Source: Baffinella frigidus
Lineage: Eukaryota > Cryptophyceae > Cryptomonadales > Baffinellaceae
Reading direction: 5' to 3'
Assembly: GCA_026770585.1 (NCBI GenBank)
Contig: MU646752.1
Coordinates: forward strand, 320,541 to 350,707
DNA: 30,167 bases
Shown here: in pieces, positions 533 to 19,290 of the stretch
Layout: every line of letters begins with the position of its first letter
Numbering within the stretch: position 1 is the first letter of the stretch
Program-made: the position numbers and the translations under genes
Notes under the pieces: model-generated
What the model was told of the DNA's origin: nothing
Seen by the model: the letters and a program-made list of their open reading frames with translations, nothing else
Database searches by the model: none

Positions 533-3500
533 CTGTGCGTTATTCGGGTGGTTGATAGACTCAGGGTTGGTTGGCTGAAACGGATTTCTCGAGGAGGCGA
601 CACGAGACAAGAAGATGTCGAAAGGTCACCTACCCAGAGTCGTATATCACAAAGTATGCAACGTACCCAGAGTCGTATATCACGTACCCAGAGTCGTATA
701 ACTAAGATTGAAGTTCAGCGGCTCGGGCCGACCCGGTACCACTCGAGGCTAGAGATGTGACTATTTTAAAACAGGGTTTCTTTTACAAGTGAAGGGGAAA
801 AAGATGGGTGTAGTAAATTTCACACAAATAGGGGCGTTTGGTCACGTAGCTGGGGGAATTCCCCCAGCTACGTGACCAAGCCTGCCCGTGACTGGTACCA
901 AATTTAACAACCCCACATTTGAAATACTCCCTCTTCCAGCCTGGAGTGGTACGCAAGGCAAACCTCCGGCACGGACTTGGCAACACACAACTGGGTACGA
1001 AACAAGCCGCGAGTGACGACCACGTTGACAGTCGGAATCTCCTCCTCAGACAAAACTAATACACACGTGCTTTACTGTTAACACATGCTTCACTGTTACG
1101 ATCAAGATCCAACTGTGTAGTAACTTTCATGGGCGGGAAACGCACTAATTAAAATGCATTCTCTGAGATAGAAATGGGTACGATCCATTCCGCGAGCGCA
1201 TTCGATTCCCGCCAATGAAAATTACTACACGGATCCTTTTACTATTACTGTTGGGATCCAAATGTGTAGTAACTTTCATTGGCGGGAAACGCACTAATTA
1301 ATAAGCATTCTCTGAGGGAGAAATGGGTACGGACCAGGCCGCGGGCGACGACGACTTTGACAGCTGGAAGGTCCTCCCCAGGCACGCCCGGATGCGACTC
1401 CACCACCGCCCGCACCGCGTTCTTCAGCAACTGCGCATGCAAAACACCAACCTTGAATGAGGAGTCATTTTGGTGTCCGAGGCCATGCAATTTAAACCAC
1501 CTTTTATGCTATGTTAAGGGTGGATTTTTCCAGATTTCGCTATCTTAGCTTCGACATAGCTGTAAAATAGCACAAAACCCACCCGAAGATAGCAAAACAC
1601 GGTTCAAATTGCATGGCCTCGCCCATGAATTTGGATGCGACTCGACCACCGCCCGCGCCGCGTTCTTGAGCAACTGCACGCGTGGCCAGAACAGGATGTA
1701 CATGTGTCGTGGTGTTACGCGCTAGTTGTTGACTGGAATTGGTCACGTAACTGAGACGATCAGGGAGACATAGGTGTTGAACATAGTCCGTCTGTCAGCC
1801 TCGAGTTCTGAGGCACGCCCAGGGAAATTTTATATAAAATATATGGTTAGTTATAAAATATATGGTTAGTTATTTGAAATAGTAGGCTCATACACCCTTA
1901 TAAAATATATGGTTATAAAATATATGGTTAGTTATTTGAAAAAGTAGGCTCATACACCCTTCACAAATACATCATATGGGATGCGACTCCACCACCGCCC
2001 GAACCGCGTTCTTCAGCAACTGCTGATGCAGAACGCCAACGTGGAAAGAGCAGTCATTTGGACGCGGCTCGGTACACAATTGACCATAGATGCTTGAGGA
2101 GCTGTGTGCGAGGCGCGCGCCGCCCGCATCACTTCTGGGGTGCGGCGCGGTGGTAGAGCGGGTGCGGGAAAACTTGGCCGATTTGCGAGAGAACCATTTT
2201 TAGAAACTCGAAATATGTGTACCAGAACTCGTCCAGGAATCATCTTTCACAAATGGGGACGAATACAGAATTTGAAACCCGAAACTGGTGCGGGATTCGC
2301 ACTTGGTGTCTCGGGTTTCGGGTTTCGGAGCGGGAGGAACCTCGGTGACCATGTACTGCATGTGCGACGGGACGTATTGTCGAAATGGGCTTCGCGCGGA
2401 ATCGAGGTCAGGTCAGGAAATCAGGATTTTTTTCAAAAAATGGACTTTTATGCTGTCGTGGGCATGATTTTTATCTCAAAATGGCATCTCCCACCCATAA
2501 GATGACACCAAAAGGCAAAAAGGTAAAAAAATGTTGCTGACCTGACCTCGATTTTTTCCGGGCGGAGCCCATTTCGACAATAGGTGGTGCTCGGGTGAAC
2601 CGTCCGTCAACTTTTCGTGTTATTTATTGCGTGAAACTCGTCAAAATTTTGTAGAATCGATCAGGGAACAAGGCTGAGGCAGATATAGACCTCGGTGACC
2701 ATGTACGGCATGTGCGACGGGACGTAGGCGATGCTTGGGTCTGGCGCCTTGCACACCACCCGGACTCAGGAAATACCTAGGGACCTAAGAAATTCCTACC
2801 AGGTGAACAGATGGCTCAGGATGTGAACTCAAGGATTTCCTCGATTTCTGGTACAAACCCAAGAATTTAGAAACCCAACGATACGCAGCTACGAATTGCT
2901 GGTGGACCTCGGTGACCATGTACTGCATGTGCGACGGCACGTAGGTGATGCTCGGGTCTGGCGCCTTACATACCACCTGCGCTTAGGGTTTCGGGTTCAG
3001 GGTTCAGGGTTCAGGGTTCAGGGTTCAGGGTTCAGGGTTTAGGTTTCAGCGTTTAGGGTGCAAGGGTGAGGGTGAGTGGTTCAGGTTGTATGGTTGTTTT
3101 TTCAGGCGGTGGGGCACTACCTCGATAGGTTCACGCCAGGTCGTAACTCGGAATTTCAGCTACAAGTCTGTTTTGAAAAAAATTACCCGGATCCAAAAAA
3201 ATGTATTCGGATCGGACGTGAAAAGGACGAGGAGCTGCCTCTCACGTGGGACCGCACACTCATTTAGTACCATGAAACAAACCGTTGCGTCCTGAAATTC
3301 CTAGTAATGGCCTCCCGTGGGGAGCGACGCCCGCGTGCGGAAAGCTGAAAAACAATCCAGGCTCACCAAATTGGTGATCCCAAATAAACTGAGACAGAGC
3401 TGGCTATCCCCCGCAGCCCTCGTTCTCAGGCGGCGGGGCGTTCTTGTTCAGGCGCCCTGAGCGCTCGTTTTCGGGTAAGGGGGCGCGACCTCGACAGGGG

Positions 3501-6500
3501 GGTCTCAGAACCCACAGGTCATGAGGCTCCCCTGAGGTCAGTTCTAAGTCAACCCCTTACCCGAAAACAGGGGGGGCGAACACAGGCATTGCCCCCCTGT
3601 CGAGGGGGGCGATGCCTGTGAGCGCCAAGCACAGCCCCACAACGGTATACACCCGTCTTGTGTCGTGTGGAGCGGAAACGAGCCCAGCCACACCACATCG
3701 GTGAGACCAAATAGACTGAGACAGCGCTAGAGTAACCTGGACGTGTGGAAGTGTGTGGGCTGGAGACAGAGCTTAGCGTATTGTCCATGTAGCTTATGAT
3801 CCATGCATCCCCTTTTTCGGCGGCGGGAGGCACCTCGACAGGGGGGGCTCCCCCCGGGGGCGCCCGTGTGAGCCACCACCAGCCACCAGAAGTGAACCAA
3901 ATCGAGGTGATGGCAAACGGTGTTTTCCCCTGCGAAGTACATGAAAAACGTGTACCATCCAGGGCAAATCAACGTTTGCCATTACCTCGATTTGGTTCAC
4001 TTCTGGTGGCTGGTGGCAGGCACAGCCCCACTGCGTCACCCGCCGCTTTCGGGGACCACCGATCCGATGTTGGTGTTTACTAAGGCCAGATAATGTGCAC
4101 TTGAGAATGTCAATGTCAATATTCACCCAACCAGCCTTACTATACACCAAACTTGGATCGGGGGGTCCCCGAAACAATTTTGACCGCGCGCGTTTTCAGG
4201 CAAGGGGGCGCAACCTCGATAGGGGGGGCGACGCTCGTGTGCGCAAGACACAGCCCCACTGCGTCATCCAAGCGCTCTCAACAAAACGGGCGCCGCAGGA
4301 ACCTTCGCCCATAAATCCCGTCGAAATATCGGGAAACAAAATGGTTTTTGCGAGCAATTATCAATTACCACGGAAATAAACGGACCGATCTGCGAAGGCC
4401 ACGGTGTGGGTCCGAGCGCCCTCGTTTTCGGGTAAGGGGGCGCGACCTCGACAGGGGGGGCGGCGCCCGTGTGCGCCAGGCACAGCCCCACTGCGTCGTC
4501 TGCCGCTTGCCCTGCGGTGTGCGTTTCGAGTCTAGCTTTCAGGGGTTTGGCGTGTGGGTTTGGGGGTGTCTCGTCGCCGCGTGTTACAGGGCTTACGGTG
4601 TGGGTGGGGTAGGGCCCCACTGCGTCGTCCGCCGTTTGCCCTGATTGCAGGGTGAAATGTTTCAGGGTGTTGTAGCCTGAGTCGGGGTAATACCACCTGA
4701 AACCCACCTGGCAGGGGCGGCCCAATACGGCAGTGCTGGGAGACACAGCAGAGGGCTCGGGCCGCCCCGGTACGTTCGTGAAGCAATCTCGTCTGGGGAC
4801 ATCACTCAATCCGTTCCACTTTGTATGCGATGTTAGGCTTTGATGTGGCAAAACTCCGGTACGGACCTCGCTTTCTCGAAACAGCTTTGAAAGTCGCTGT
4901 GGAAAGGTTCAAAGGGTTGAGGGTGGCCCGACCTGCGATCAAGTCGGGACGGCACGCCTTCGCCAGGATCCCGCTGTATCCTGGGTTCTCCACCTGCGAG
5001 AGACAGGCATTAATGGGGTAATGGACCAAAAAATGGGGTAGTTAGGCCTACGGGATTGCCTAGGACCTCCTACTGTAGGCATGCGAGCAGCGTCAGCGGG
5101 GCGTCCTGCAGAGAGACAACCACACGGTGGTCTACCAACCTTTCATCAAAAGTCAACTTACCTGAAGACAATTAACTTAACGATTTTTTCTGATGCAAAT
5201 TGGGCACGCATCACCCTGGAATCCAGGGTCAACGAAACCCTCGTAGCCCACCGTGTGGATGGTGCTCGATGAACAATGCCCTCCCGGTACGCGAAGTACG
5301 ACTGATGTTAATCACAGGTTGTCAGCTGATGGTGTTTGGTGTTTGGTGACACCAAATTTTACAGGTTGTGAGTCCTGAGATTTCATAGGTTATGTATGAG
5401 CCCTGAGATTTCACAGGTTATGAGACCTGGGTGCATACAGGCGCCTACCGTAGGGACTGGACTATGTTCATGGGGTAACGTCCTGAAAACCGGGTAGTTA
5501 GGCCTACCGTATTGCCTACGGTAGGCCGTAGGGCCCCTGGGACCTAATGTGTCATAGGAACCCCCTTAGGCCCCTACTGCCTACCATAGGCAATACCGTA
5601 GGCTTAACTACCCGGTTTTCGGGACGTTAGCCTATGAATGTGGGTGCCTTGCGCAAGTGGACACCTGCAGCACCACAACCTAGCGCCGTTTCCCGTAAAT
5701 CGTGGGACCGCATATAATCATGAATTAATCGGTATTGCCGGTGAAACAATTCATCCATGAGACCGCATGCAGGTCATGAAGCAATCATACTAAAGCTCAA
5801 GCCCTTCACACTACACTGCGAATCCGGATATTTTGCAAAAGTCAACACCCCCACAAATCTGCCAACTTTAGAAACGAGATGCACCATCGGTGTCCTTCGA
5901 TTTTCGATTTTCGCCATGAGTTGACTAATACAAAAAACTTGGCCCTGGCAGTTCACTAAGCACCTGTGCGGTGATATGGTGCTCCATGAGGAAGCGAAGC
6001 CCGATCCGCGCCGTGTAGAACGCCCCCAGAACCTGCGGGTTATGGCGTAGGGGTCACACGCGAGGTCATCATCGAGGCACCCTGAACCCACGGTCTCGGC
6101 TCGGCACCGCCAAGCCCGGTTCTGGTCCTAATTAAATTTACTTAAGGCCCTAATTAACCTTCGTCCAACTCCTATGAACAAATAGGGATCAATTTTGGTT
6201 AACATGGAGGCAGCCTTCACCCACGCGCATTGTCGGTCTCGGCTCGGCACCGCGAAGCCCTGGGTGGACCCCCGATACGCGCCGTGTAGCCCCAGAACCT
6301 GCGATTGCGATTTAGAGTGTAGGGTGTAGGGTGTAGGGGTGTAGGGTGCAGGGTGTAGGGTGCAGGGTGGAGGGTGGAGGGTGTAGGGTGTAGGGTGTAG
6401 GGTGTAGGGTGTAGGGTGTAGGGTGTAGGGTGTAGGGTGTAGGGTGTAGGGTGTAGGGTTTAGGATTTAGGGTGTAGGGTTTAGGGTGCAGGGTTTAGGG

Positions 6501-9500
6501 TTTGCGCATCACACGCGCATTGCCAATCTCGGCTGAGCACCAGGCATGGCTGGACCTTATCCGGGGACACCTATTTTTCTTTTATTTGATTCCAATGAAA
6601 ATCACTACAAAAATGATTGAACAAAAATTATTACTAGTAAGAACGAATTGTGTAGTAATGTTCATTGCCATCAAATGAAAGAAAAATAGGTTTCCCCGGA
6701 TACGACCCGCGAGCCACCGCGAAGTGTCCTGTTCACGACTCCTAGATCTGTTCGAGTTCGATTTGGTCTCATCATTAAAAACATTTAGACGTAGATGGAC
6801 GGTTAATTCGTACTGAAGATCCTTCTTTAAAACTAATAACGATGAGACAAGATTTAGTGGGACAGAGCTAGGACTCGGTCGCGACCGTGTGCTTCCCGCG
6901 CGGCTGCACGCAGGAGGAGGGGTGCTAATGCCACAAGCTAACGCCAGCGGACCCCTTAGCCTACGATAGGAACCCCCCCTCCTCCTACGACGTTTGAAAC
7001 AAAAAGGTCTTTAAAAGTCGTAGGAGGGGGTTTCCTACCGTAGACAATCCGTAGGCTCTAAGTACCTCACTGGCGTTGGCTTTTTGCATGAGTGCAGCTG
7101 GATATGGGCGTAAGCCAGTCGGTTCGCGGACATGGTGCTGAGAGTGGAGGGGGTGCGGATTCCTAGCTCTGCCTCACTCGGGTTGACGGAAACATGCACG
7201 ATCGTCCCAGACTCTGTCGTTTCGGTACTCAAGTACTAGCTCTGCCTCAGCCGGGTTGACCGACTATTGTCAAGTTAGCATGCTGGTTCCACGGTACAAA
7301 TCCGTCAACTTTGGAGCGGAAAAGAGCCCGGGCTCATCAAATTTGCGAGCCCAAATAGACTGAGACAGAGCTGGGATTCGAATAAGCCTGATCGATAGAC
7401 GCATGCATGTGATGGCAGGGTGTGCGGTCTCGGCAGGATGAGGTAGGGTAGGGTAGGGTAGGGTCGGGTCGGTAGGATTTCGTAGGGAATTTAAAACCTA
7501 AATCCAAAACAATAAACCCTAAACCCTAGGGAGGAGGGTTTAAGATCTAGGGTTTAGGGTTTAGGGTTTAGGGGGCAGAGTTTAGGGGTGTAACGTGTAG
7601 GGTGTAGGGTTTGAGGCTTCGGGGATCTAGTCGATGGACTCCTGCAACCGTGTTGTTGCTATCTTGGGATGGTTTTTCTTATATATTAAAGACATATCCA
7701 AGCTAATATAGCAAAATAAGAGAGTCACCACCCTTAAGATAGCATAAAAGGCGGTTTAAATTGAGTCGCCCCGCACACTAAAGTGATGGAAGCCGCGCGT
7801 TACAGTGAGGATCAGGGAGGATAGGGAGGGTCAGAAGCATTGTTTAGGGGGCTTAGGGTGCGGGTTCACGTGTAAATCTGGTCAACTTTCACACGTGTAA
7901 ACCTGGTCAACTTGAGAATAGTCGGTCAACCAAAGCGAGGCAGGGCTAGAGCGTGTCCGGTTGGGTGTGAGGGCAGATTCGGTTTGAGGGCGGGTTCGGG
8001 GGGGCCTGATCGATGGACTCCTGCATGAGATGGAACCGACCATTCTCAAGTTGGCAAGCTGGCTTCGAGGTAAAAAATCGTCAACTTTGGAGCGGGAAAG
8101 AGCCCGAGCTCACCAAATCCGCGAGCCCAAATAGACTGAGGAAGAGCTAGGATTCGACTTAGACTGAGGAAGAGCTAGGATTCGACTTAGACTGAGGAAG
8201 AGCTAGGATTCGAGAGAGCTAGGAGGCCTGGTCGATGGATTCCTGCATGTCATGGAAGCGCCTATTCGCAAGTTGGCATCGATGCCACCTTCACAAACGC
8301 ATCAACGTTGGAGCGAAAACACGCCCGGAATCGACAGATTGGTGCGGCACTTGGACAAAAGCAGGATTCGGGGGGACCTGGTCGATGGACTCCTGCATGT
8401 GATGGAAGCGCTCAGCCCCGACCTCGTCACGCAACTCCACTGCCAGCCCCCACCCTTCACTTCCAATAATAAAATAAATTAAAAATCTACACACGCAAGA
8501 AAAAAAGAAGAAAAAATTGGGAGGTGCTGCCCTTCAGTTCCACGCAAAAAGTGGCTACGTGAAAGAAAACAGAAACTACCCAACATGGTGCCTACACTTT
8601 GCTTACTGGCTGCAGGCGTGACTCCTCGTGGCCAAACTCAGAAACAAACCCTGTTAAGAGTGGGAGTTAATAGTGGGTTACATAAACAAACCCTAAGAGC
8701 GGCACTCTTAACGGCCGCGGGAGGGGGGCACGGGCCGAGAGTGGAGGGTGGAGGATACCGCATGCCTGAGCGAGGTTTCAGAATACTGCCGTGTGGTCCC
8801 GAACCAAGCTCGTCAAAATGTTTGTAGACTTTTGGACTACTCATTTCCAGGCTTGAGAGTAATAAAGATGGAGGAGGAGGAGGAGGAGGAGGGGGAGGAG
8901 TAGGAGGACGGAGGGTCGTCTTAATTATCATAGACTTTTGGATCACTCATCTCCAGGCTTGAGAGTAGTAAGGATAATGAAGAAGAAGAAGGAGGAGGCG
9001 GATGGAGGGTACCGCATCCCTGCGCGAAGTTGCGCAACCTCGCGCTAGGACTAGCGTTTGGTCCAGAGACGTCTTAGGGCTCACAAAATTTTGGTCTTAG
9101 GTCTCACAAATTTTTGGATCAGATCACTCATCTCCAGGCGTGAGAGCAATAAAGGCGAAGGAGGAGGAAGAGGAGGAGGGAAAAAAAGACGAAGAAGGAG
9201 AAGGAGCCTCCGTCTTCGTCTTTATTCTCAGGAGGAGGAGGAGGAGGAGGAGGAGGAGAAAGGAGGGCTGCCGCGTCCCTGCGCGAGGTTGCCGACTGCC
9301 GTGTGGTTCCGCAGCAGAAGAAAAACAACAGGGAGCGGGGTGAGGGGCGAAGAGATCACGGGCCAAAAGTAGAGGGTGGAGGCTCATAGACTTTTGTATC
9401 ACTCAACGCAAGGCTCAAGGGCCTCATTTAACTCAAGGCTCAAGGGCCTGATTTAGGACCTGTATCGAGAGTAAAAAAGAACAAGAAGAAGAAGAAAGAG

Positions 9501-12500
9501 GTGGAGGATACCGCATCCCTGCGCGAGGTTGCGCACGACTGCCGTGTGGTCCCGCAGCATCCGTTTCAGCATCGCTGCACCCCGCGGGCTCCCCTGTGTC
9601 AGCCACCGCCAGTTTCGAACACGCAACCATTATAGCTCTTGTCTTTGAGGCGGGCCCGTTTCTCGAGGCGCATAGACTGTTGTATCACTCAACTCAAGGC
9701 TCAAGGGTCTCATTTAGGAGCTGTATCGAGAGCCATCAAGAAGAAGAAGAAGATAGTCCCGCCTCCCTCCACGCAACCTCCCCTCCGCACAACTTCCATC
9801 CACACAACCTCCGCCTCGTTGCTATACGCCGTTGACCTACCGTTCCTGAACCCGCGACTCGTTTCCCTCCTGCAATTCGCAGTGTAGCAACGACCGTGTG
9901 GTCCCGCGGCATCCGTTTCAGCAACGCTGTTCCCCGCGATGAGGCCACGGTTAGCTCCAGGCGCCGTCCTTCTAGATCTCCTGGACGAAGCCTGCACAAA
10001 TCTGATGGAGTCGGTGTAAAGTACAGAAGAGGGTTCGCATGGAGGTGTCGCTTTACAAACAGGGCGGCTTTACCCACACAGCGGGCTGAGAAGGGATTCT
10101 TCGGCCCATTTTGGGGCCAACTTTCCGTTACCTTATCTCAAGGAAACCCCCCTACGGCGGCAAACAGCTCCAATTCCCAACACTTTTGGCGTGTTTCTCG
10201 GGTAGAATCAACTTTACTTCTAGATCGTGTAGTAAAATAAAAAACGTTCAAATTTCGACTTCAGACCTGGCACGGGCAGGGCGACGACGCCAGCTTTATC
10301 CGGGGAACCCTATTTTTCTTCTATTTCCTGGCAACGAAAATTACCACAGAAACGCTTTAATATTACTAATAAAAACGAATTGCGTAGTAATTTTCGATTC
10401 CAGGAAATAAAATAAAAATCCCCGGATAAAGCTCCGTCGCCTACCGAGGTTAGAGTTGCCTCGGAGTTCCCCACTCAGGTGGAGTTCCCCAACCTACCCA
10501 CACCACACGGCTTCGAAGGTTTCGGTGACCCTTGATTCCGGGGTGATACGTGACCAATTTGCATGGGAAAATCCTCCAAGTTAACTGTCTTCAGGTAAGT
10601 TGACTTTTGATGAAAGGTTCGTAGTCCACCGTGTGGTACCCACAGAAAGAGTACCTGTGAAGCGCGCCTCCTCCTCGACGGTGTGAGGGCAGGGCGAGGA
10701 TGCCAGATCCGTCGCTGCGTCTGCATACCTGCCCCGCTCTTGCTGTGTCAGTAACCTGACGAAGTGTCGTTGCTGTGTGTCAGTAACCTCATCAAGTGTC
10801 GTTGCGTCTTAAAGTGTCGCGCCACGGCCACGAGTTCAATCAAGTTCATAGGCCAACGGACTAAAAATGGGGTAGTTAGGCCTACGGAATTGCCTACCGT
10901 AGGCCGTAGGGCTTCCATGACCAAAAATTCCTAGGATTTTGGCCTACAGTAGGAGGTCCTAGGCAATGCCGTAGGCCTAACTACCCCATTTTTAGTCCAT
11001 TACCCTATTCAAGTCGCAGGAGGCTCCGCCGCTGCGTCTGCACACCTGCCGTGATTTACACCACAAGTGAGTGCAGCGAAATGGCTCCAAGCCCCGCGCA
11101 AATGTGAGATACAATCTAGAGAGGGCCGGGAGCCTCTCTGCGTCAGTGAGCTGACAACGTGCCTTGCCCTCCTGCTTCAGTCAGCTGACAACGTAGAGCG
11201 CTTGCGAGAAAACTTGGCCGATTTTAACGAGATTTTTTTCCAGAAATTCAGAGCTTTTGTACCAGGACGTGACATGAAACCGGTCCATCTAAACGATTCT
11301 GGTACAAATTCTGAAAACATTTCTCGTTGAAATCGGCCAAGTTTTCCCGCAAGCGCTCTATTATGATACCGCTTTGTTTTGAACGTCTGCATACAGGGGT
11401 ACCTCGCTCATGAGAAACTGCCCCCCCCCTAGGACCACCGTAGGGCCCTGGGCATAGTCCTACCGTAGGGTCCTAGGGGATGGTAGTTTCTTATGAGCGA
11501 GGTACCACTGTACCTGCCTCGCCTTTATGCTTCAGTCAGCTGACCTGGATTCCGCGATGTAACACCCAGGATTTCGCGATTTTTTGGGTATCCAACCAAT
11601 TTCATTCAGTGACCTGATCACGTACCGCTTCGTTTTGAGGTTCACACGAAATAAGCTATTGACACAACACAAGCCATCGCACTGGTGAAAGTAGCACCTC
11701 GTGTTGAAGTTTCTTGTCTCAGTCACCAGTTCAGGGAAGCCACCTCTCGCAGCGGAAAACTGTGCGAATGCCATGATGTCTGCTATCCCTTAAGTGGCGA
11801 GTAGGCCCATACGCCCTACCGTGGGGCCCTAGGACCTGCCTAGAACCTCTTGGTCGTTGGCCGTCGAATTTGACGGCCTCGCCACTTGAGGGATACGGCG
11901 TTGGCCTAGGGTTCCCACAACCGCGTCTCATAGTCTGAAAGACCGTTTGCACAGCCGTTCTCTCTGCAGAGAATTATGAACACGGGAGAAAAACGAGGCC
12001 TATTGAGTTGACAAACACGACCACTTCACGCTATTGTACTTTTCGGGTGAGCGCGGATTTTCTCGAGGTCGGGTCGGGGTGTCGGGAAATGAAAATCTCG
12101 ATAATTGGTGCGTCCATCTAAAGTTTTATGCTATCTTATTCATTGATATGATGACAAGATGCACCCCCCACCCATAATATGTCACAAATACTAGAGCCCT
12201 TTTTCGATATTTTCGATTTTTCCCGACTCCCCGACCCCGACCCAAAATCCGCGCTGACCCGAAAAGTACAATAGAGGGAGAGATACCACCCAGACCCAGA
12301 CAACCCAAGACCCCTCCTTTAACTGAAAGGGGGAGACCCACCAGAAGAAAAAACTCCGCACGGACCCCTCCTCTGTCAGGCTGGACGGGAGCGCCTACCT
12401 GAAACTCCACCTTCAATTCACATTGGTTCGGGGGAACATGGACACCCACCAGAAAAAAAAATAGCGCACCGACCGCTTTTCCGAGTAACCCAACGGCAAC

Positions 12501-14902
12501 GTCGCCAGCTGCACCGCGCACTGGGTCGTGCGGATCCATTCCAAGAATTCCAAGAATTCCAAGAATTCACAGGGGGGAGGCGGGACACTCACCAGAAGCA
12601 CACATCGCGCGATGTGGATCTTTTGTTTCGATAGGCCGAATGGCAGAATCGCCACCCACCCACCTTCTTCATCTGAAAAGCTAACGCCAGCGAGGTACTT
12701 AGAGCCTACGGATTGCCTACGGTAGGAGCCCCCCTCCTACGACTTTTAAAGACCTTTTTGTTTTAAACGTCGTAGGAGGAGGGGAGGTTCCTACCGTAGG
12801 CTAAGGGGTCCGCTGGCGTTAGTGTGTGGCATTATTCTGCGCCGTGTGGATAGCCAGCTCGCGGCAGAGGAAGCTCTACCCTCAATCCTTCCTTCGACTG
12901 ACACGAGACACTCACCAGAAGAACACATCGCGGACGGAGCGTTTTTCGGAGAGGTCGAACGGTAGGGTGGGGAGCTGCACCGTGCTCTGGGCGGCCGTGC
13001 GGATCAATTCCAAGAAAAGAAAAAACAGGGAGGTGGCGGGACACCCACCAGAAGAAGACATCTCTGACCGAGCGCTTTTCCGAGAGGCCGAACGGTAGCG
13101 TGGCGAGCTGCACTGCGCGCTGTGCCGTGCGGATAGCCAGCTCGCGGTGGAGGAACCGCGCATTTTCCAGTCGGTATTTGTCGACGGTGCCGCGCAGCCC
13201 GAACTGTTCGAGGGGAGGGGGTCTTAGTACGTCTTCGTGTGCCGCTTCCACGCAGCACTCCGGGGATTCGCGCGCTCGGCGTGTACACGGTTGCTCGCTA
13301 ATAATGCCTGAGTGTGTAGACCACTCTACTAGGGATGGCCAGGAGACCACTCTACTAGGGATACTAGGGATGGCCCTAGTAGACCACTCTACTAGCCACT
13401 AACCTTCACGGCTTGGGCAAATCGACGATTTTCGATTCGGGATTTCAAGGGGGTTGAAGTCGGAATCCGACTTCAACGGCTCCAACTCCCCTTAGAATCG
13501 GGAAATCAAAAATCGTCGATTTGCCCAAGCCGTGAGGGTTGGTGGAGGGATGGCCAGGAGCGGTGCCGCGCAGCCCGAACTGTTCGGGGCGGATGGGGGG
13601 GGGGGGTCGAAGGAGATCAAACTGCTTGCAGAGGTGAGAAGGTCTCAGGGGATCGAACTGCTTGCTTTTAAGGGGCGAAGATCCCGAAGTGTTCCGGGCG
13701 GTGGGGAGGGGGTCGCAGGGGATCGGGAACCCGAACTGCGCGCGAGGGGCTCATCCGGGAACAGCTTTAATGTAAAATAAAATGGATCCCTATTTGTTCA
13801 TATGAGTTGGACAAAGGTTCATTAGGGCTCTAAGTAAAATCAATTGGGACCAGAACCCGGTTTGGTTAGGCCATTTTCTTGAGGGGTCTCAGGGGATCGG
13901 AAGCACGAGGTGCGCGCGAGGGGCGGCGGGACGGAGGGGATCACTTGATGGGGGGGGGGGTTCGCGCGCTCGACGTGTACGTGCCACACAGCGGACTTCA
14001 AAGGGATTTTGAATAGCCCCTGAGCGATAACATCTAGGATCCTACAGTAGACAACCCGTAGGGACATAGGGGAGTTCCTACGGTTAAGGTAACGGAAACT
14101 CGGGCTCTCAGCGCCCGAAAATCCCTTCGTAGCCCGCTGTGTGGTTGATGAAATTGATTGGATACTCATAAAATCACAAACTCCTGGGTGTGACAGAGCG
14201 GAATGCAGACGAGCACAACCGTTCGAGGTTGCGTGTTGGTCGGTTTCGGGAAAGCACGGCGCGGATAGCCCGCCGGTGTGTTACACACGTGTCCACCAAT
14301 CTTCACGGTGGGACCAAATCGCTGATTTTCGATTTCCCAATTCCTATGGAAAATGGCTCCACCACAGGCGAATTCGCCTGGCTGCCCGGGTGAATCTGAG
14401 ATTTTAAAATCGGCGATTTGGTCCTTCCGTGAGGGTTGGTGGGTGTATGCGGGCAGGATGGTGAAGGCACCGTGGCGGATGCGGTCCTGAGGACTACTCC
14501 TGGAAAAAGTCGGGGAGCTGGCCGACACGCAACCTCGTACACGTCCTTTCGGAGGGTATCGGAAGGATTGGTCGGTTCAGGCACTGACAATGCATTTATC
14601 TGAGCACTCACATGGAAAAGGTCGGGGAGCCCAGCCACTGGGGCAGCAGGCAAGGCATGTCCCCGGGGGAGATGGATTTCGGGGGTTGACATTATCTGAG
14701 CAGAGTTGACCGGTAACCTAGCTCTGCCGAGCGCTTGACAGGTACCCTAGCTCTACCGCAGGTGAATTGACTGGTCTTTTTCACACCAAGAGTGGACGCA
14801 CCTGGAAGAGGTCGGGGAGCGCGACGGGCGTCGGTTCTTGCTCCGCGAGCCTCAGCAGCACGTTCTCTCTGTCGGGGTCGACTCCCAGCACGCCGGTCCA
14901 CA
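452..14902 (-). CDS. PDK: Mitochondrial PDK/BCKDK-family protein kinase gene, 12 exons, 5' and 3' ends missing
   Basis: Composite gene read on the minus strand from high to low coordinates. Known family role: GHKL-fold kinases in the mitochondrial matrix that phosphorylate the E1 subunit of pyruvate or branched-chain ketoacid dehydrogenase and switch the complex off. Seen in order: TPVALPDLFQ, FLHRELAIRTAQ, FPEL, EEEARFT, RDHTAVVRNLAQG, VELRDEVG, FYTARIGLRFLMEHH, ENPGYSGIL, ADDAVGLCLAH, YVPSH, the N-box E|LLKNAVRAVVE and the G1 box ISDEGGGIPRS. About 300 residues are visible against roughly 400 usual for the family. Ten of the eleven recognised junctions or flanking phases fit; phase is unresolved around the small exon at 11.73 kb. 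A start exon with a targeting peptide was not found, and the G2 region lies left of the window. Introns are 0.4-2.9 kb and packed with foldbacks and degraded exon copies. PDK and BCKDK cannot be separated from these pieces. Confidence 0.88.
631..702. repeat. Three copies of ACCCAGAGTCGTATATCAC
   Basis: A 19-bp unit at 632, 664 and 685 with short spacers; no function inferred. Confidence 0.85.
739..949. mobile_element. Foldback E1 (CCACTCGAGGCTAGA arms)
   Basis: 211 bp between TA and TA. Arms CCACTCGAGGCTAGAGATGT and CCTCTTCCAGCCTGGAGTGG. Contains the core-1 remnant GGTGTAGTAAATTTCACAC and a 42-bp perfect palindrome at 838-879 centred on GAATTC. Confidence 0.85.
996..1046 (-). pseudogene. Decayed 3' half of the N-box exon
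   Basis: gggtacgaaacaagccgcga through cagtcgg and ctcctcag parallels the 3' half of the exon at 1335-1430 with many substitutions. A shorter echo of the donor region (gaaatgggtacgatccattc) lies at about 1173-1195. Confidence 0.55.
1107..1340. mobile_element. Foldback D6 region with GGCGGGAAACGCAC arms
   Basis: GTGTAGTAACTTTCATGGGC, its inverted partner near 1200-1227, and a direct repeat of the first unit at 1264-1313. Core 1 again, with a third type of arm. The direct repeat runs into the end of the N-box exon. Confidence 0.65.
1335..1430 (-). CDS. PDK: PDK-family exon, GHKL N-box
   Basis: The 96-nt, 32-codon exon has acceptor tgcgcag and donor GGCCTG|gtccgt. It reads LLKNAVRAVVESHPGVPGED then LPAVKVVVARGL. 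This is the N-box of the GHKL ATP site, with Asn in LLKN as the expected Mg-ATP ligand. Phase is 0 at both ends, giving VVVARGL|EDVTIRIS. Copies of its first 41-43 nt with the acceptor occur upstream at 1631-1673 and 1979-2019, and a copy of its 3' half occurs downstream at about 996-1046. Confidence 0.93.
1479..1620. mobile_element. Foldback W1 (GAGGCCATGCAATTT arms)
   Basis: GAGGCCATGCAATTTAAACC and complement; core 5: GCTATCTTAGC..CGACATAGCT and CCACCCGAAGATAGCAAAAC. Confidence 0.85.
1631..1673 (-). pseudogene. Truncated N-box exon copy
   Basis: Carries acceptor gtgcag and LLKNAARAVVESHP, then stops matching. One residue (Val to Ala) and several silent positions differ from the exon at 1335-1430. 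It lies just upstream of that exon in the transcription direction. Confidence 0.75.
1826..1965. repeat. AT-rich tandem repeat
   Basis: TATAAAATATATGGTTAGTT repeated, embedded in two 65-bp units ending in AGTAGGCTCATACACCCTT. Confidence 0.85.
1979..2019 (-). pseudogene. Truncated N-box exon copy
   Basis: Carries acceptor atcagcag and LLKNAVRAVVESHP, then breaks at the same codon as the copy at 1631-1673. The shared breakpoint suggests the two arose together or one from the other. Confidence 0.75.
2156..2250. mobile_element. Half-copy of foldback family N
   Basis: GAGCGGGTGCGGGAAAACTT GGCCGATTTGCGAGAGAACC; one arm only. Confidence 0.65.
2341..2596 (-). pseudogene. Third YVPSH exon copy, split by a foldback
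   Basis: The 3' part of the exon (to GTGCGACGGGACGTA on the plus strand) is followed by foldback O1 and then by GGTGGTGCTCGGGT, the continuation seen uninterrupted in the two sister copies. The 5' end decays into unrelated sequence. Donor GAG|gttcct is kept. Confidence 0.75.
2377..2580. mobile_element. Foldback O1 with an empty-site partner
   Basis: TTGTCGAAATGGGCTTCGCG .. GGAGCCCATTTCGACAA with inner arms AATCGAGGTCAGGTCA. TA on both sides. The uninterrupted target, GACGTAGGYGATGCTYGGGT, is present at 2722 and 2939. Confidence 0.93.
2691..2759 (-). pseudogene. Second copy of the YVPSH exon, frame intact
   Basis: A full-length 69-nt copy of the exon at 2908-2976. By eye six bases differ: four are synonymous and two change residues (Thr to Ala, Gln to Pro). 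The donor GAG|gtctat is kept, but the acceptor AG is replaced by GG. The bias toward silent change suggests the copy was under coding constraint for a time, or derives from a sister copy that was. It could be a dead exon duplicate or an alternative exon. Confidence 0.75.
2908..2976 (-). CDS. PDK: PDK-family exon, YVPSH segment
   Basis: The 69-nt, 23-codon exon has acceptor taagcgcag and donor ACCGAG|gtccac. It reads VVCKAPDPSITYVPSH then MQYMVTE. It matches '..pyvPsHl.hml.E'. The last Glu is the catalytic Glu that precedes the N-box in this family and is joined to LLKNAVRA in the next exon. Two further copies lie downstream in the intron: an intact-frame copy at 2691-2759 and one split by a foldback at 2341-2596. 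Confidence 0.92.
2984..3075. repeat. Telomere-variant array (TTCAGGG)n
   Basis: Six TTCAGGG units with TTTAGGG and TTTCGGG at the edges, starting six bases beyond the acceptor of the YVPSH exon. Confidence 0.85.
3103..3135 (-). pseudogene. Faint copy of the ADDAVG exon donor region
   Basis: tttcaggcggtggggcacta then cctcgatagg resembles the intron-exon edge of 4447 (tttcgggtaagggggcgcga then cctcgacagg). Weak on its own, but it is one of a series. Confidence 0.35.
3416..3508 (-). pseudogene. Donor-side copies of the ADDAVG exon
   Basis: A close copy of the donor and first intron bases (cgttttcgggtaagggggcg then cgacctcgacagg) ends in unrelated sequence at about 3500. A second, poorer echo (ctcgttctcaggcggcgggg) precedes it. 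Confidence 0.55.
3555..3640 (-). pseudogene. ADDAVG exon copy plus an inverted donor fragment
   Basis: cccctgtcgaggggggcgat then gcctgtgagcgccaagcaca and gccccac copies most of the exon (3594-3634). Just before it, cccttacccgaaaaca is the donor region in inverted orientation, making a small local hairpin of exon-derived sequence. Confidence 0.55.
3811..4045 (-). pseudogene. ADDAVG exon copy interrupted by foldback K
   Basis: cacctcgacagggggggctc to cgcccgtgtgagcca, then foldback K, then ggcacagccccactgcgtca. Removing K and one CA restores gtgtgagccaggcacagcc, matching the exon at 4447-4511 (gtgtgcgccaggcacagcc). Confidence 0.75.
3876..4016. mobile_element. Foldback K in a ghost exon, CA target
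   Basis: About 50-bp near-perfect arms: CCACCAGCCACCAGAAGTGA, ACCAAATCGAGGTGATGGCA and complement. CA on both sides. Its ends (CCACCAGCC) and short variable target agree with family H. Confidence 0.9.
4190..4270 (-). pseudogene. ADDAVG exon copy
   Basis: Nearly the whole exon plus its donor intron side (cgttttcaggcaagggggcg, cctcgataggggggg, gtgtgcgcaagacacagccc). The acceptor end is lost into catccaagcg. Confidence 0.65.
4447..4511 (-). CDS. PDK: PDK-family exon, ADDAVGLCLAH
   Basis: The 65-nt exon has acceptor acaccgcag and donor GTCGAG|gtcgcg. After completing Gly it reads QAADDAVGLCLAHTGAAPPV then E. It fits the family helix 'a.eDA..lC...yG.aP.v'. It is the least degraded of at least seven copies in 3.1-4.65 kb and the only one seen with both junctions, full length and frame. 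It is followed in phase by VVCKAPDPS at 2976. Confidence 0.88.
4610..4650 (-). pseudogene. Acceptor-side copy of the ADDAVG exon
   Basis: agggccccactgcgtcgtcc then gccgtttgcc copies the first about 28 nt of the exon behind an acceptor reading tgcaatcag. It lies upstream of the exon at 4447-4511. Confidence 0.6.
4933..4993 (-). CDS. PDK: PDK-family exon, ENPGYSGIL
   Basis: The 61-nt exon has acceptor tctcgcag and donor ATCGCAG|gtcggg. It reads VENPGYSGILAKACRPDLIA plus a leftover G. It matches the family segment '..gyvGii...cspa.va'. It joins the next exon in exact phase (G|GG, Gly). No degraded copy of this exon was noticed. Confidence 0.85.
5012..5080. mobile_element. Half-copy of foldback family C
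   Basis: TGGGGTAATGGACC then ATGGGGTAGTTAGGCCTACG; only one arm and core 2 remain. It lies directly upstream of the ENPGYSGIL exon. Confidence 0.65.
5120..5258. mobile_element. Foldback F1 (CCACACGGTGG ends)
   Basis: CCACACGGTGGTCTACCAAC .. CCCTCGTAGCCCACCGTGTG; interior TTCATCAAAAGTCAACTTAC. Confidence 0.82.
5320..5430. repeat. Local direct repeats
   Basis: GGTGTTTGGTGTTTGGTGAC and two copies of CCTGAGATTTCAYAGGTTAT. No gene or foldback seen. Confidence 0.6.
5467..5638. mobile_element. Foldback C2
   Basis: Arms TTCATGGGGTAACGTCCTGA / complement, with GGGTAGTTAGGCCTACCGTA and core 2; 172 bp. Confidence 0.85.
5964..6032 (-). CDS. PDK: PDK-family exon, FYTARIGLRFLMEHH
   Basis: The 69-nt, 23-codon exon lies between cccgcag and CACAG|gtgctt, phase 0 at both ends. 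It reads VLGAFYTARIGLRFLMEHH then ITAQ, a close match to the family signature 'fLdrFY.sRIgiRmLi.qH'. One frameshifted copy, missing about six bases, lies at 6270-6308 with its acceptor retained. Confidence 0.92.
6116..6199. mobile_element. Family T fragment
   Basis: CCGGTTCTGGTCCTAATTAA ATTTACTTAAGGCCCTAATT .. AACAAATAGGGATCAATTTT. Shares core 4 with family S. Confidence 0.65.
6270..6308 (-). pseudogene. Frameshifted copy of the FYTARIG exon
   Basis: ccccgatacgcgccgtgtag then ccccagaacctgcg matches the 5' part of the exon at 5964-6032 with its acceptor, missing about six bases around Gly-Ala-Phe. A shared flank, ggtctcggctcggcaccgc, also occurs at 6089-6107, 6236-6255 and (degraded) 6525-6545. 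Confidence 0.6.
6308..6504. repeat. Telomere-variant array (GTGTAGG/TGTAGGG)n
   Basis: About 27 units of TGTAGGG with TGCAGGG, TGGAGGG and TTTAGGG variants. Confidence 0.9.
6560..6700. mobile_element. Foldback D1 (TCCGGGGA arms)
   Basis: TA-flanked. Arms TCCGGGGACACCTATTTTTC / complement, around core 1 (GAAAATCACTAC .. GTGTAGTAATGTTC). Confidence 0.88.
6928..7089. mobile_element. Foldback B1 (AAAAGCTAACGCCAGCG ends)
   Basis: 162-bp near-complete hairpin: ATGC.AAAAGCTAACGCCAG at one end and its complement at the other, with stem parts CCTACGGTAGGAACCCCC and CCTCCTACGAC around a spacer near AAACAAAAAGGTCT. The left end of this copy is decayed. Confidence 0.85.
7239..7371. mobile_element. Foldback I1 (GCTCTGYCTCAG ends)
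   Basis: GCTCTGCCTCAGCCGGGTTG .. GAGCCCAAATAGACTGAGAC AGAGC. TA left, TG right. Interior GGTACAAATCCGTCAACTTT. Confidence 0.8.
7438..7615. repeat. GGTAGGGTAG and TTTAGGG variants
   Basis: GTAGG units, then CCCTAAACCCTAGGGAGGAG, then inverted TTTAGGG units, so two opposite telomere-type strands meet at 7510-7560. Confidence 0.75.
7660..7768. mobile_element. Family W copy
   Basis: TGCTATCTTGGGATGGTTTT .. ACCACCCTTAAGATAGCATA and GGTTTAAATT; core 5. Confidence 0.65.
8006..8215. mobile_element. Family I copy with a triplicated end
   Basis: CAAGTTGGCAAGCTGGCTTC to GAGCCCAAATAGACTGAGGA AGAGCTAG, followed by two further tandem copies of the 28-bp end unit (ACTGAGGAAGAGCTAGGATT CGACTTAG). A second decayed copy runs 8262-8345. 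Confidence 0.65.
8378..8439 (-). CDS. PDK: PDK-family exon, VELRDEVG segment
   Basis: The 62-nt exon has acceptor gggctggcag and donor GACCAG|gtcccc. It reads (V)ELRDEVGAERFHHMQESIDQ. It fits 'mAqGv.El...' followed by the helix leading into 'fLdrFY.sRIgiR'. Phase is exact on both sides. Four shorter copies of its 3' end (CTGGTCGATGGACTCCTGCA as read on the plus strand) occur downstream in the same intron at 8228-8260, 8006-8037, 7627-7647 and 7388-7415. Confidence 0.78.
8761..9317 (-). pseudogene. Three copies of the RDHTAVV exon
   Basis: Copies at 8761-8802, 9012-9040 and 9271-9317 keep the NLAQG end followed by gcatgcgg, ggatgcgg or ggacgcgg. All are decayed upstream. Each is flanked by GGA/GAA tracts and by a repeated 'agacttttgg.tcactcat.tccaggc' segment, so the duplicated unit is larger than the exon. 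Confidence 0.6.
8868..9260. repeat. GGA/GAA trinucleotide tracts
   Basis: Tracts at 8868-8902, 8978-8999, 9155-9215 and 9229-9263; smaller ones at 268-285, 9478-9500 and 9738-9752. Each lies next to a copy of the RDHTAVV exon, as part of a repeated unit. Confidence 0.9.
9518..9574 (-). CDS. PDK: PDK-family exon, His motif RDHTAVV
   Basis: The 57-nt exon reads MLKRMLRDHTAVVRNLAQ plus a leftover G. It matches the family motif 'RH..VV..mAqGv' with the conserved His. The acceptor is ggtgcag. The exon end that keeps phase with the next exon (G|TG GAG, Val-Glu) is CAGG|gatgcg, a GA rather than GT donor; GA and GC donors are known in dinoflagellates. The degraded copy at 8.77 kb has gcatgcgg at the equivalent place. 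Copies lie at 8761-8802, 9012-9040, 9271-9317 and 9890-9930. Confidence 0.8.
9890..9930 (-). pseudogene. 5' copy of the RDHTAVV exon
   Basis: cgaccgtgtggtcccgcggc then atccgtttcagcaacgctgt copies the 5' two thirds of the exon at 9518-9574, with intron flank. Confidence 0.6.
10074..10162. mobile_element. Half-copy of foldback family G
   Basis: CCACACAGCGGGCTGAGAAG, TTCTTCGGCCCATTTTGGGG, CTTTCCGTTACCTTATC; the right half is absent. Confidence 0.65.
10299..10426. mobile_element. Foldback D2 (TCCGGGGA arms)
   Basis: TA-flanked sister of D1: TCCGGGGAACCCTATTTTTC / complement around GAAAATTACCAC .. GCGTAGTAATTTTC. Confidence 0.9.
10503..10636. mobile_element. Foldback F2 with 8-bp target duplication
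   Basis: Inverted relative to F1 and F3. TACCCACA occurs at 10495-10502 and 10637-10644, directly bordering both ends. An 8-bp duplication is typical of hAT and P superfamilies. Confidence 0.88.
10655..10720 (-). CDS. PDK: PDK-family exon, VEEEARFT segment
   Basis: It reads AATDLASSPCPHTVEEEARFT and ends ACA G|gtactc. In the family this is the acidic stretch 'deerFt.lL' before the His motif. The leftover G joins the CG that opens the exon at 9518-9574 to make Ala, an exact phase match. The start is uncertain: gtatgcag|AC at 10720 is preferred because the same acceptor sequence is copied at about 11020-11060. A second AG at 10742 would add seven residues in frame. Confidence 0.7.
10851..11005. 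mobile_element. Foldback C3
   Basis: Between TA and TA. Arms GGCCAACGGACTAAAAATGG and its complement, then GGTAGTTAGGCCTACGG. Confidence 0.87.
11196..11358. mobile_element. Foldback N2
   Basis: 163 bp between TA and TA. Arms GAGCGCTTGCGAGAAAACTT GGCCGATTTTAACGAGA and complement; core 3 (GGTCCATCTAAACGATTCTG) inside. Confidence 0.9.
11394..11510. mobile_element. Foldback A2
   Basis: Second copy of family A, 117 bp between TA and TA, same interior. Confidence 0.88.
11727..11759 (-). CDS. PDK: Candidate 33-nt PDK-family exon (FPEL)
   Basis: A tiny segment between gcacag and CTG|gtgact reads FSAARGGFPEL. The family has 'SF..lr.FPE' after the WY motif, so order and content fit. The phase does not: the preceding exon leaves two bases and this frame starts at a codon boundary. 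About four residues (Tyr-Val-x-Ser) and one base are therefore unaccounted for, and a further micro-exon may be missing. Copies of the gtcagtcagctgac donor side recur at 11131-11190, 11524-11545 and 10745-10797, which supports a genuine exon end here. Confidence 0.45.
11786..11893. mobile_element. Foldback U
   Basis: TCCCTTAAGTGGCGAG .. CTCGCCACTTGAGGGA, TA on both sides, core 2 inside. Confidence 0.82.
12034..12271. mobile_element. Foldback O2
   Basis: TTGTACTTTTCGGGTGAGCG CGGATTTT and complement, inner arms TCGGGTCGGGGTGTCGGG. TA on both sides. Interior shares CCACCCATAA.ATG.CAC with O1. Confidence 0.9.
12317..13002 (-). pseudogene. Several 3'-half copies of the FLHRELAIR exon
   Basis: Copies at about 12912-13002, 12838-12875 (middle part), 12590-12660, 12440-12525 and 12317-12350 (donor only). 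The two at 12590 and 12912 have a canonical donor CTG|gtgagt where the full exon has gtgggt. Each preserves parts of AVQLATLPFGLSEKRSVRD. Confidence 0.7.
12671..12832. mobile_element. Foldback B2
   Basis: 162 bp, inverted relative to B1, lying between ghost copies of the FLHRELAIR exon. Confidence 0.87.
13049..13203 (-). CDS. PDK: PDK-family exon, FLHRELAIRTAQ segment
   Basis: The exon has 155 nt (51 codons plus TG). Its acceptor is a C/T-rich tract ending in aacag and its donor is CTG|gtgggt. It continues in phase from the exon at 14802-14902, giving LFQ|FGLRGTVDKY. It carries RFLHRELAIRTAQRAVQL and LPFGLSEKRSV, equal to the N-terminal four-helix region of the family (..FLhrELpiRlAhRv.eL..LP..L...pSv). 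The expected Trp is completed across the junction (TG|G). Degraded copies of its 3' half, each with a caccagaag junction, lie at 12.3-13.0 kb, and a copy of its 5' end lies at 13.56 kb. Confidence 0.9.
13396..13545. mobile_element. Foldback H1 (CCACCAACC ends), AG target
   Basis: CCACTAACCTTCACGGCTTG .. AAGCCGTGAGGGTTGGTGG with stem GGGCAAATCGACGATTTTCG. AG borders both ends. Confidence 0.88.
13560..13920 (-). pseudogene. Acceptor-side copies of the FLHRELAIR exon
   Basis: gtgccgcgcagcccgaactg then ttcggggcgg at 13562-13590 copies the exon start. Weaker echoes (gatcaaactgcttgc, gatcgaactgcttgc, gggaacccgaactgcgcg, gcacgaggtgcgcg) follow at 13616, 13650, 13719 and 13898, as a decayed tandem series. 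Confidence 0.45.
13780..13862. mobile_element. Inverted family T fragment
   Basis: GGATCCCTATTTGTTCATAT GAGTTGGACAAAGGTTCATT .. TTGGGACCAGAACCCGG, the reverse complement of 6116-6199 with few changes. Confidence 0.7.
13984..14144. mobile_element. Foldback G2 (CCACACAGCGG ends)
   Basis: 161 bp, arms CCACACAGCGGACTTCAAAG and CTTCGTAGCCCGCTGTGTGG, core 2 inside. Confidence 0.85.
14293..14442. mobile_element. Foldback H2, GT target
   Basis: CCACCAATCTTCACGGTGGG .. TTCCGTGAGGGTTGGTGG; GT on both sides. Confidence 0.88.
14511..14640 (-). pseudogene. Two 3'-end copies of the ALPDLFQ exon
   Basis: tggaaaaagtcggggagc and tggaaaaggtcggggagccc repeat the last about 18 nt of the exon at 14802. The second ends TTCCAT|gtgagt, the first CCAG|gagtag. 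Confidence 0.55.
14802..14902 (-). CDS. PDK: PDK-family exon, TPVALPDLFQ segment
   Basis: The 101-nt exon follows a pyrimidine tract and AG and ends at CAG|gtgcgt. It begins with two bases of a split codon, so at least one exon lies upstream. It reads 33 residues, WTGVLGVDPDREN then LLRLAEQEPTPVALPDLFQ. In the family this is the stretch just before the conserved Phe-Gly that opens the next exon (..TPvsL.qL.eFG..). The same open frame continues upstream to about 15377, but I see no convincing start there. Partial copies of its 3' end lie at about 14511-14535 and 14611-14640. Confidence 0.8.
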
Positions 14903-16839: not shown

Positions 16840-17036
16840 AGAACCCGAATTACGTGTGGAGCAAGGCTTCGGAGCCTGCCCGCAAGCACGGTCTCTTGCC
16901 CTACCACGCCAGAGGGCTCGAAATATCCACTTGTGTCATCTTTCAGGGGAAATCCCTTAAACACTTAAGTCAACGACGTCAGATCTGATGTGGATAAGGC
17001 TTCGGTTTCCTTCGAGCCCTCTGGCGTGGTACCTCT
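16840..17036 (+). pseudogene. Copy of the KEYDPHYVW exon interrupted by foldback R1
   Basis: attacgtgtggagcaaggct to cttgccctA, then R1, then TACCTCTGG. The sister copy reads cgccctacctcctccctctg without interruption. Confidence 0.7.
16914..17029. mobile_element. Foldback R1 with an empty-site partner
   Basis: CCACGCCAGAGGGCTCGAA .. TTCGAGCCCTCTGGCGTGG, TA on both sides. Inserted in a ghost exon; the sister copy reads cgccctacctcc. Confidence 0.9.
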
Positions 17037-17369: not shown

Positions 17370-17460
17370 TAGAACTCTGCGGGCGCCATGGTGTTGTTTG
17401 CATTACGCATCAGCCTGTACTTCTTGAGACCGTATCATCATGTGTGCATTGCACCGTTCA

Positions 17461-17775
17461 AACCCTAAACCCCAAACCCTAAACCCCAAACCCTAAACCC
17501 TAAACCCTAAACCCTAAACTCTAAACTCTCACCCCTCAACCCTAAAACCTAAACCTCAAACTCTAAACCCTAAACCCTAAACCCTAAACCCTAAACCCTA
17601 AACCCTAAACCCTAAACCCTAAACCCTAAACCCTAAACCCTAAACCCTAAACCCTAANNNNNNNNNNACCCTAAACCCTAAACCCTAAACCCTAAACCCT
17701 AAACCCTAAACCCTAAACCCTAAACCCTAAACCCTAAACCCTAAACCCTAAACCCTAAACCCCAAATCCTAAACC
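17461..17775. repeat. Interstitial telomere-type array (CCCTAAA)n
   Basis: About 40 units of CCCTAAA, degenerate at the left edge (CCCCAAA, CTCTAAA), nearly perfect in the middle. Contains the N gap. It separates the minus-strand gene side from the plus-strand gene side. Confidence 0.93.
17658..17667. other. Assembly gap of 10 N
   Basis: Ten N inside the CCCTAAA array. True array length is unknown. Confidence 0.99.
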
Positions 17776-17843
17776 CCGGGCACAGGGCTTCCCTTCGCTC
17801 CAGACAACCCGGTCTGTCCCCCCCATCAAGCACTGCTTCCCTA

Positions 17844-19186: not shown

Positions 19187-19290
19187 GCTATCTCGAGGGT
19201 GCAACTTGCTATCTTAGCCTCGACATAGCTTTACCATAACACAAACCCCACCCACCTCTAAGATACAACATGGTGTTTTGAATTAAATCA
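19187..19290. mobile_element. Family W copy
   Basis: TGCTATCTTAGCCTCGACAT AGCTTTACCATAACACAAAC .. TCTAAGATACAACATGG. Follows a ghost exon directly. Confidence 0.68.

Follow-up and report, generated by a model that had tools for sequence, protein, structure and literature searches.

Local, decaying copies of exon edges in the introns of a PDK/BCKDK-type mitochondrial kinase gene of Baffinella frigidus

The introns of a PDK/BCKDK-type mitochondrial kinase gene of the cryptophyte Baffinella frigidus hold partial copies of the edges of its own exons. The gene lies in a stretch of 30,167 nucleotides (assembly GCA_026770585.1, contig MU646752.1, positions 320,541 to 350,707 of the forward strand), hereafter the window, in which all positions below are counted. 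The copies are on the same strand as the exon and near it, pass one splice junction and never both, derive in a star-like manner from the exon, and are enriched at exon borders beyond what detection bias gives. It is about as likely as not that introns here grew partly by recurrent short duplications at exon-intron borders, mostly with new DNA between the two copies. All results come from this one scaffold window and two genes: the kinase gene on the minus strand, and a candidate gene on the plus strand.

Results

Exon-edge copies in the kinase gene

The local, decaying copies of exon edges in the kinase gene are confirmed as real. Eleven exons of the gene (E1-E11) lie in the window, and these were defined independently of the copies. 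Each exon was searched, with 60-bp flanks, against the whole window (E<0.05). Same-strand copies overlapping the exon were found for nine of the 11, every one of them at most 1 kb away, and no same-strand copies of E7 or E11 were found in the window at this threshold. The original prediction, made from the letters of the sequence, had given nearby same-orientation copies to nine of twelve kinase exons; nine exons have copies here too, but the exon total in the window is 11. Opposite-strand matches touching exons are two weak ones, at E4 and E8. In total there are 31 matched stretches (E1 2, E2 6, E3 2, E4 4, E5 4, E6 1, E8 6, E9 2, E10 4), or about 28 copies once three split ones are joined, with identities of 73-98%, a median length of 42 bp and a median spacing of 372 bp.

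Exon queries without flanks (E<0.01) gave 26 same-strand matches within 1 kb and none farther away, and on the opposite strand one near and none far. Twenty first-order Markov shuffles of the window produced two exon-query matches in total, both strands included. Of 86 non-exon tiles of 70 bp that contain no foldback, marked tandem repeat or copy, 12 have a same-strand match nearby. Random non-exon intervals were also passed through the exon pipeline (600 drawn, 178 overlapping copies excluded, leaving 422), and 23.5% of these have a near same-strand match, versus nine of 11 exons (binomial P 7e-5, the intervals not being independent of one another). Far matches are seen for 57.8% of the control intervals and for none of the kinase exons. 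An all-against-all comparison (E<=1e-3) gave 48 local same-strand pairs, of which 11 belong to dispersed families, one of these touching E5. An exon is involved in 25 of the 37 non-dispersed local direct pairs, whereas circular shifts of the exon map gave 6.3 such pairs on average and never more than 16. Six of the 12 non-exon pairs are, on our reading, copy-copy pairs of the same exons. None of the six local inverted pairs involves an exon.

The copies, all on the minus strand like their exons, are placed as follows. E1 (14802-14902) has two donor-edge copies (14606-14630 and 14499-14518). E2 (13049-13203) has four, at 12904-13004, at 12546-12606 plus 12837-12872 (probably parts of a single copy that a foldback has divided), at 12440-12535 and at 12331-12393, and an acceptor-edge copy at 13561-13598. 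Beside the latter, upstream of E2, weak extra local repeats occur at 13599-13948, and these were excluded from the copy counts. E3 (10655-10728) has an acceptor-edge copy (11025-11050) and an interior copy downstream (10274-10293) that does not extend across the adjoining foldback; a copy of E3 split by the foldback at 10298-10436 was considered and dropped, as the joined flanks gave no longer match. E4 (9512-9574) has three donor-edge copies (9271-9316, 8961-9036 and 8747-8801) and an acceptor-edge copy (9894-9938). A dispersed element (CATAGACTTTTG..., 8825-9753) repeats around E4, interleaved with the E4 donor-edge copies, and has a further 71% match far off at 28279-28330. E5 (8378-8439) has four donor-edge copies (8227-8261, 7992-8038, 7621-7646 and 7387-7418), and E6 (5964-6032) has an acceptor-edge copy (6271-6303). 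E8 (4447-4511) has three donor-edge copies, at 4182-4268, at 3832-3864 plus 4017-4048 (with a foldback between the two parts) and at 3461-3502 plus 3604-3640 (probably one split copy), and an acceptor-edge copy at 4614-4643. The two donor-edge copies of E9 (2908-2976) are at 2688-2760 and at 2339-2376. The first is the entire exon minus its acceptor, the nearest thing to a whole-exon copy, and the second is interrupted by a foldback (2377-2582). E10 (1335-1430) has two donor-edge copies (1126-1198 and 989-1052) and two acceptor-edge copies (1633-1677 and 1979-2059). The two exons without copies are E7 (4933-4993) and E11 (452-532).

One-junction layout and junction ends

The kinase stretches that extend past a donor, 20 in all, are without exception downstream of their exon, and the seven that extend past an acceptor are all upstream. 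A donor was counted as passed from one base beyond the exon, and five of the 20 extend no more than two bases past it. The four interior stretches are all downstream of their exon. Thus, 27 of the 31 stretches pass one junction and none passes both, and the predicted form of the copies, one exon edge plus its splice junction in the same orientation, is upheld. Five introns (E1/E2, E2/E3, E3/E4, E5/E6 and E9/E10) hold both types of copy, and the two types are never interleaved.

The copies tend to end close to the junction on the intron side. Among copies at least 91% identical, from both genes, the median extent is 30 nt on the exon side and 4.5 nt on the intron side, a comparison that favours the exon side in that counted copies needed about 8 nt of exon overlap. 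The intron-side end is at most 6 nt from the junction in ten of these 14 copies, and in seven of ten for the kinase alone (Wilcoxon P 0.012). The copies of E9 are 92-97% identical up to the donor, past which there is unrelated DNA at all three places.

Direction of copying

Exons were compared with pairs of their copies. In 32 such three-way comparisons, which overlap within one exon so that the counts are not independent, 16 changes are private to the exon, 13 of them at third codon positions (2/1/13 over the three positions), and 144 are private to a copy (49/27/68). Copy-copy differences amount to 159 sites versus 206 summed exon-copy differences, which is near a star. The few exon-private changes, the many copy-private ones and the near-star shape together identify the exon as the conserved parent and the copies as near-independent offspring. 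Thus, the exon is the living parent, from which copies arose several times and then decayed. The repeated local process that had been predicted is supported, as the copies are partial, one-junction, near and on the same strand, and several come from the same living exon.

Border preference and detection bias

A pair that includes a conserved exon is easier to detect than a pair of decaying intron sequences. When parents were made to decay at the rate of the copies, about 60% of the detectable pairs were still found (14.9 of 25, out of 31 pairs in all). There are about 860 start positions for exon-border duplications versus about 6,700 bp of non-repeated intron, and uniform duplication would be expected to give about 117 intron-only pairs, versus at most 12 seen; this is a rough estimate of our own that excludes intron deletions, which could cut it up to about two-fold. 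Given the exon involvement in 25 of 37 pairs and the retention of about 60% under parent decay, easier detection of exon parents is insufficient, and a border preference of roughly five-fold or more remains.

Discussion

Proposed growth of introns by duplication at exon borders

Duplication of a segment T that includes one junction, giving A-T...T-B with one whole exon kept, leads to the observed layout, donor edges downstream and acceptor edges upstream. Two other routes fit less well. Copy-and-paste of exon edges into random intron sites would also give donor edges upstream and acceptor edges downstream, and none is seen. Doubling of a longer tandem unit would leave long matches beyond the doubled stretch in young copies, and these are absent at E9. 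What is left is a short doubled stretch with other DNA between the copies. The gaps between copies are 73-361 bp in 27 of 31 cases, and the other four, all at E2, are 10-46 bp.

In the explanation favoured here, which we consider about as probable as all others together, each event would double a stretch of about 20-100 bp across one splice junction and would usually leave about 70-360 bp of other DNA between both copies. In its simplest molecular form, this would be a long-staggered break, or two nicks staggered in the same way, whose filled-in ends are joined together with additional DNA; alternatively, DNA may be inserted with a target duplication of unusual length. Selection would retain only those events that leave one complete exon. 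The copy joined to the remaining exon would stay functional, and the other would turn into intron and decay. Copies with two junctions would presumably be spliced into the message and selected against. We infer the staggered-break step, the insertion of the spacer in the same event and the reason for the border preference. As to the last, a DNA process aimed at splice junctions is tentatively suggested, at clearly lower confidence than the duplications themselves: breaks or insertions would prefer borders, one end lying at most a few bases from the splice site and the other 20-70 bases into the exon, so that introns would grow from their ends and retain copies of former borders that can be dated.

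Several observations weigh against growth by border duplication with new DNA between the copies. The explanation leaves the border preference itself without a cause, and its evidence base is two genes on one scaffold. The near-tandem copies of E2, with their short gaps, fit pure tandem duplication. The spacers of E4, E5 and E10 each appear by eye to form one family per exon, a hint that units of copy plus spacer were sometimes amplified locally. The ratio of nonsynonymous to synonymous exon-copy differences is 0.36, where about 0.5 is expected (bootstrap interval 0.22-0.67, which includes 0.5), and the copy-copy ratio is 0.44 (a point estimate without interval), where neutral decay would give 1. 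The excess of differences at third positions is thus only partly accounted for, and a residue is unexplained. Finally, were each new copy placed beside the exon, divergence would be expected to increase with distance, but the two agree in 18 pairs and disagree in 14 for the kinase (4 and 7 for the plus-strand gene), a weak test. Strict outward stacking of copies by age is unsupported by these pairs; either the test is too weak for matches of 20-80 bp, or copies sometimes land away from the exon.

Alternative explanations

The strongest alternative, possible but considerably less probable than the border duplications favoured above, is that ordinary tandem duplications occur genome-wide, that those at borders are seen more often through their non-decaying parent and the purging of whole-exon events, and that later insertions separate the copies. 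Any tandem-type event combined with selection would yield this layout and leave no two-junction copies, the E2 copies are indeed near-tandem, and short pure tandem repeats are present in the introns. However, the exon involvement in 25 of 37 pairs is above every circular shift, and parent decay costs only about 40% of detectable pairs, so that intron-only pairs should dominate several-fold. In addition, the rest of a longer unit should still match in copies that are 92-97% identical, and at E9 it does not. Head-to-tail homology over the whole spacing is lacking for E9 and partial for E5 and E10, with the near-tandem E2 as the exception.

It is improbable that foldback elements, similar to miniature inverted-repeat transposable elements (MITEs), make the copies through insertions at exon borders that duplicate a long target. 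A foldback (1206-1288) does lie exactly between two flank copies at E10, and foldbacks make up 3,184 of 13,555 intron bases in a lenient scan, a figure inflated by one 505-bp pair at 9031-9535. Strong folding relative to shuffles (z below -5) is found in seven of 24 tested spacers, but not in the other 17, two of which are near z -2.2. The four short E2 gaps, two inserts in split E8 copies and one E5 gap fell outside this test, and a foldback inside an E9 copy was cut off from it; the inserts within the split E8 copies are foldback-rich. Two foldbacks also cut copies and left short duplications. The one at 2377-2582 interrupts an E9 copy with a TA duplication, and the joined flanks form a 61-column E9 match with one gap base; the one at 3876-4018 interrupts an E8 copy with a CA duplication, and the joined flanks form a 74-column match with ten extra bases. 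As they interrupt existing copies, at least these two foldbacks arrived later. As drawn, 33 of 43 scored foldbacks have no duplication outside their arms. Given the folding of the spacers and the two interrupted copies, foldbacks look like bystanders of copy formation and are unlikely to be its cause, and the suggested tie between the copies and foldback movement was not borne out.

Slightly less probable still is an origin from RNA, in which pre-mRNA fragments around splice sites would be copied back into the gene during repair. The copies do centre on splice sites, keep the strand of the gene and mostly stop a few bases into the intron. However, seven of the 27 junction-passing kinase stretches carry at least 29 nt of intron, and an RNA template alone leaves the layout of donor edges downstream and acceptor edges upstream unexplained. 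When the spliced kinase sequence was compared with the window, none of the 35 matches spanned an exon-exon junction.

An assembly artefact, with pieces from related strains or haplotypes joined in one scaffold, is very improbable. There is a gap of 10 N in the scaffold (17658-17667), and the synonymous lean of the differences is in the direction expected from the exons of other strains. Against this, the copies are 2-27% different from the exon and sit in different flanks, their private changes are spread over codon positions (49/27/68) unlike those of the exon (2/1/13), and about 28 separate junctions would be required in one gene. Least probable of all is a use for the copies, such as that of a decoy splice site or a spare exon end: AG is kept in seven of seven acceptor-edge copies (by eye) and the differences lean synonymous in both ratios above, but GT is kept in only 12 of 20 donor-edge copies (also by eye), copy-private changes fall at all codon positions, and no copy has both splice sites.

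Once introns exist, their lengthening is difficult to trace, since ancient intron sequence has nothing to be compared with. In the introns studied here, every decaying edge copy records an event at an identified exon border, and the parent, which hardly decays, provides the standard of comparison. If such copies are found genome-wide, intron growth could be dated event by event and neutral decay measured inside genes, and it could be asked why breaks or insertions favour splice junctions.

The host locus

The kinase gene was modelled from homology, E1 being placed by homology as well as by the gene model; its 11 exons are jointly in frame, and every junction is GT-AG. The start of E8 was set at 4511 from homologues, and the corrected reading frame of 896 bases has no stop. 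The left end of the window cuts off the C-terminal part of the protein, including the end of the ATPase domain. The spliced sequence carries PF10436 (BCDHK N-terminal domain, E=1.1e-33), to which E2 contributes, followed by the GHKL ATPase domain PF02518 (4.8e-06); two raw frames also show PF10436, one of these matches falling slightly short of the curated cut-off. The spliced kinase matches the structure of PDK3 (PDB 1y8n, E 3.5e-31). It is 59% identical to an environmental protein, and in a quick tree built from 46 of the 120 matches listed (1,293 in all) it clusters with four environmental proteins with an SH-aLRT (Shimodaira-Hasegawa-like approximate likelihood ratio test) support of 100. 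By these sequence matches, the gene encodes a mitochondrial kinase of the PDK/BCKDK type. Its donors are weak, with C at +3 (GTC) in six of 11, and its acceptors are CAG in 11 of 11.

The GC content of the window is 53%. No dinoflagellate spliced-leader sequence was found in it at up to three mismatches, no Rfam match at gathering score and no tRNA. Viral contigs searched with two foldback patterns and the kinase gave no relatives, in a search from which records of the window's own genome were possibly excluded. A foldback family of about 165 bp occurs in both orientations at 6926-7091, 12669-12834, 22907-23070 and 23665-23835; the first three are 89-92% alike and the fourth is more diverged. 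Arrays of CCCTAAA/TTTAGGG and variants (TTCAGGG, TGTAGGG) are found inside the scaffold, some of them in introns, at 17460-17776, 2985-3085, 6313-6501, 7527-7612, 22250-22392 and 27701-27821. The 10-N gap, the only one in the window, sits in the longest of these. Long CT-rich and GA-rich arrays at 28639-28830 and 29960-30163 are mutually complementary and about 1.1-1.2 kb apart.

The plus-strand candidate gene

A spliced-looking candidate gene occupies about 16-30 kb on the plus strand. In the protein search no homologue was found at E<=0.001, and no Pfam domain was seen. Local copies are found for eight of nine candidate exons, of which P3 and P12 have no clear GT donor. All eight donor-passing stretches are downstream, all eight acceptor-passing ones are upstream, four are interior and none of the 20 passes both junctions. 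However, the exons were picked partly by their copies, the member of a set with both ends intact being taken for the exon, so this layout is circular and not independent evidence. The same holds for the prediction that every better-supported plus-strand exon has copies, which agrees with eight of the nine candidates but concerns exons that lack a homologue. In 15 three-way comparisons, ten changes are private to the exon and 73 to a copy.

P2 (16637-16724) has a donor-edge copy at 16843-16905, and P3 (19522-19570) is flanked by copies, upstream within 19001-19382 and downstream within 19745-20433. P7 (22521-22641), a candidate without homology support, has an acceptor-edge copy at 22358-22470 and a donor-edge copy at 22746-22811. 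Copies of P10 (25746-25859) lie upstream at 24814-24838, 24994-25036 and 25502-25550 and downstream at 25931-25973 and 26113-26172. P11 (26707-26793) has a donor-edge copy at 27199-27274.

Comparison with known systems

Tandem exon duplication gives local same-strand copies of whole exons with both splice sites. The copies in the kinase gene are likewise local and on the same strand; however, none is a whole exon with both splice sites. The original prediction held that this goes beyond ordinary tandem exon duplication, and that is supported: the copies are partial, never pass both junctions and are mostly separated, and the E9 spacers are clearly unrelated. No description of recurrent decaying exon-edge copies was found in titles and abstract openings, in a search that left most subscription papers outside. 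The claim that no described system matches exactly holds for size and recurrence, but two systems, in Daphnia and potato, show the same kind of event (PMC4202315, PMC4974935).

Neointrons of Daphnia carry direct repeats of exon ends, 33 in number and 4-12 bp in length, which are ascribed to staggered double-strand breaks with insertion; internal repeats are present in 55 of 90, and repeated bouts were proposed to lengthen introns (PMC4202315). As there, a same-strand direct repeat of exon-terminal bases is found here in the adjacent intron. However, the stretches here are longer, about 20-100 bp, with up to four per exon edge, and the Daphnia repeats are those of new introns; the kinase median of 42 bp is outside the 4-12 bp range, and the matching method is blind to repeats of that length. 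In the potato RdRp gene, an intron was gained via a single tandem duplication across an intron-exon boundary (PMC4974935). In both cases the doubled segment passes one splice junction and part of a former exon becomes intron, but in potato one event gave one new intron, and here existing introns are enlarged by numerous events, mostly with other DNA between the copies.

Direct repeats near the splice sites of introns across taxa, 4-30 bp long with a mean of 11.4, were attributed to insertion and break repair (PMC11782384). These resemble the present copies in being direct repeats near splice junctions, but they link the two ends of one intron, whereas here an exon edge is linked to copies in the adjacent intron. 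Introners are repeated DNA inserted with target duplications, of 3-9 bp for known families, and some have terminal inverted repeats (PMC9860276, PMC7789003). The likeness is in repeated DNA inserted at gene positions with target duplications. However, introners form whole introns of one family, whereas the spacers here are diverse, being neither foldbacks as a rule nor, with the exception of those at E4, E5 and E10, members of one family, and the doubled stretch is much longer; several spacers have no match elsewhere in the window. Small tandem duplications arise in mouse and human cells when the ends of staggered breaks are filled in (PMC8355091). This provides a molecular route for doubling tens of bases, but the breaks in that work are experimental and have no tie to splice junctions. 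The copies found in this window differ from the described events in their length, their strict layout and their recurrence at one and the same edge.

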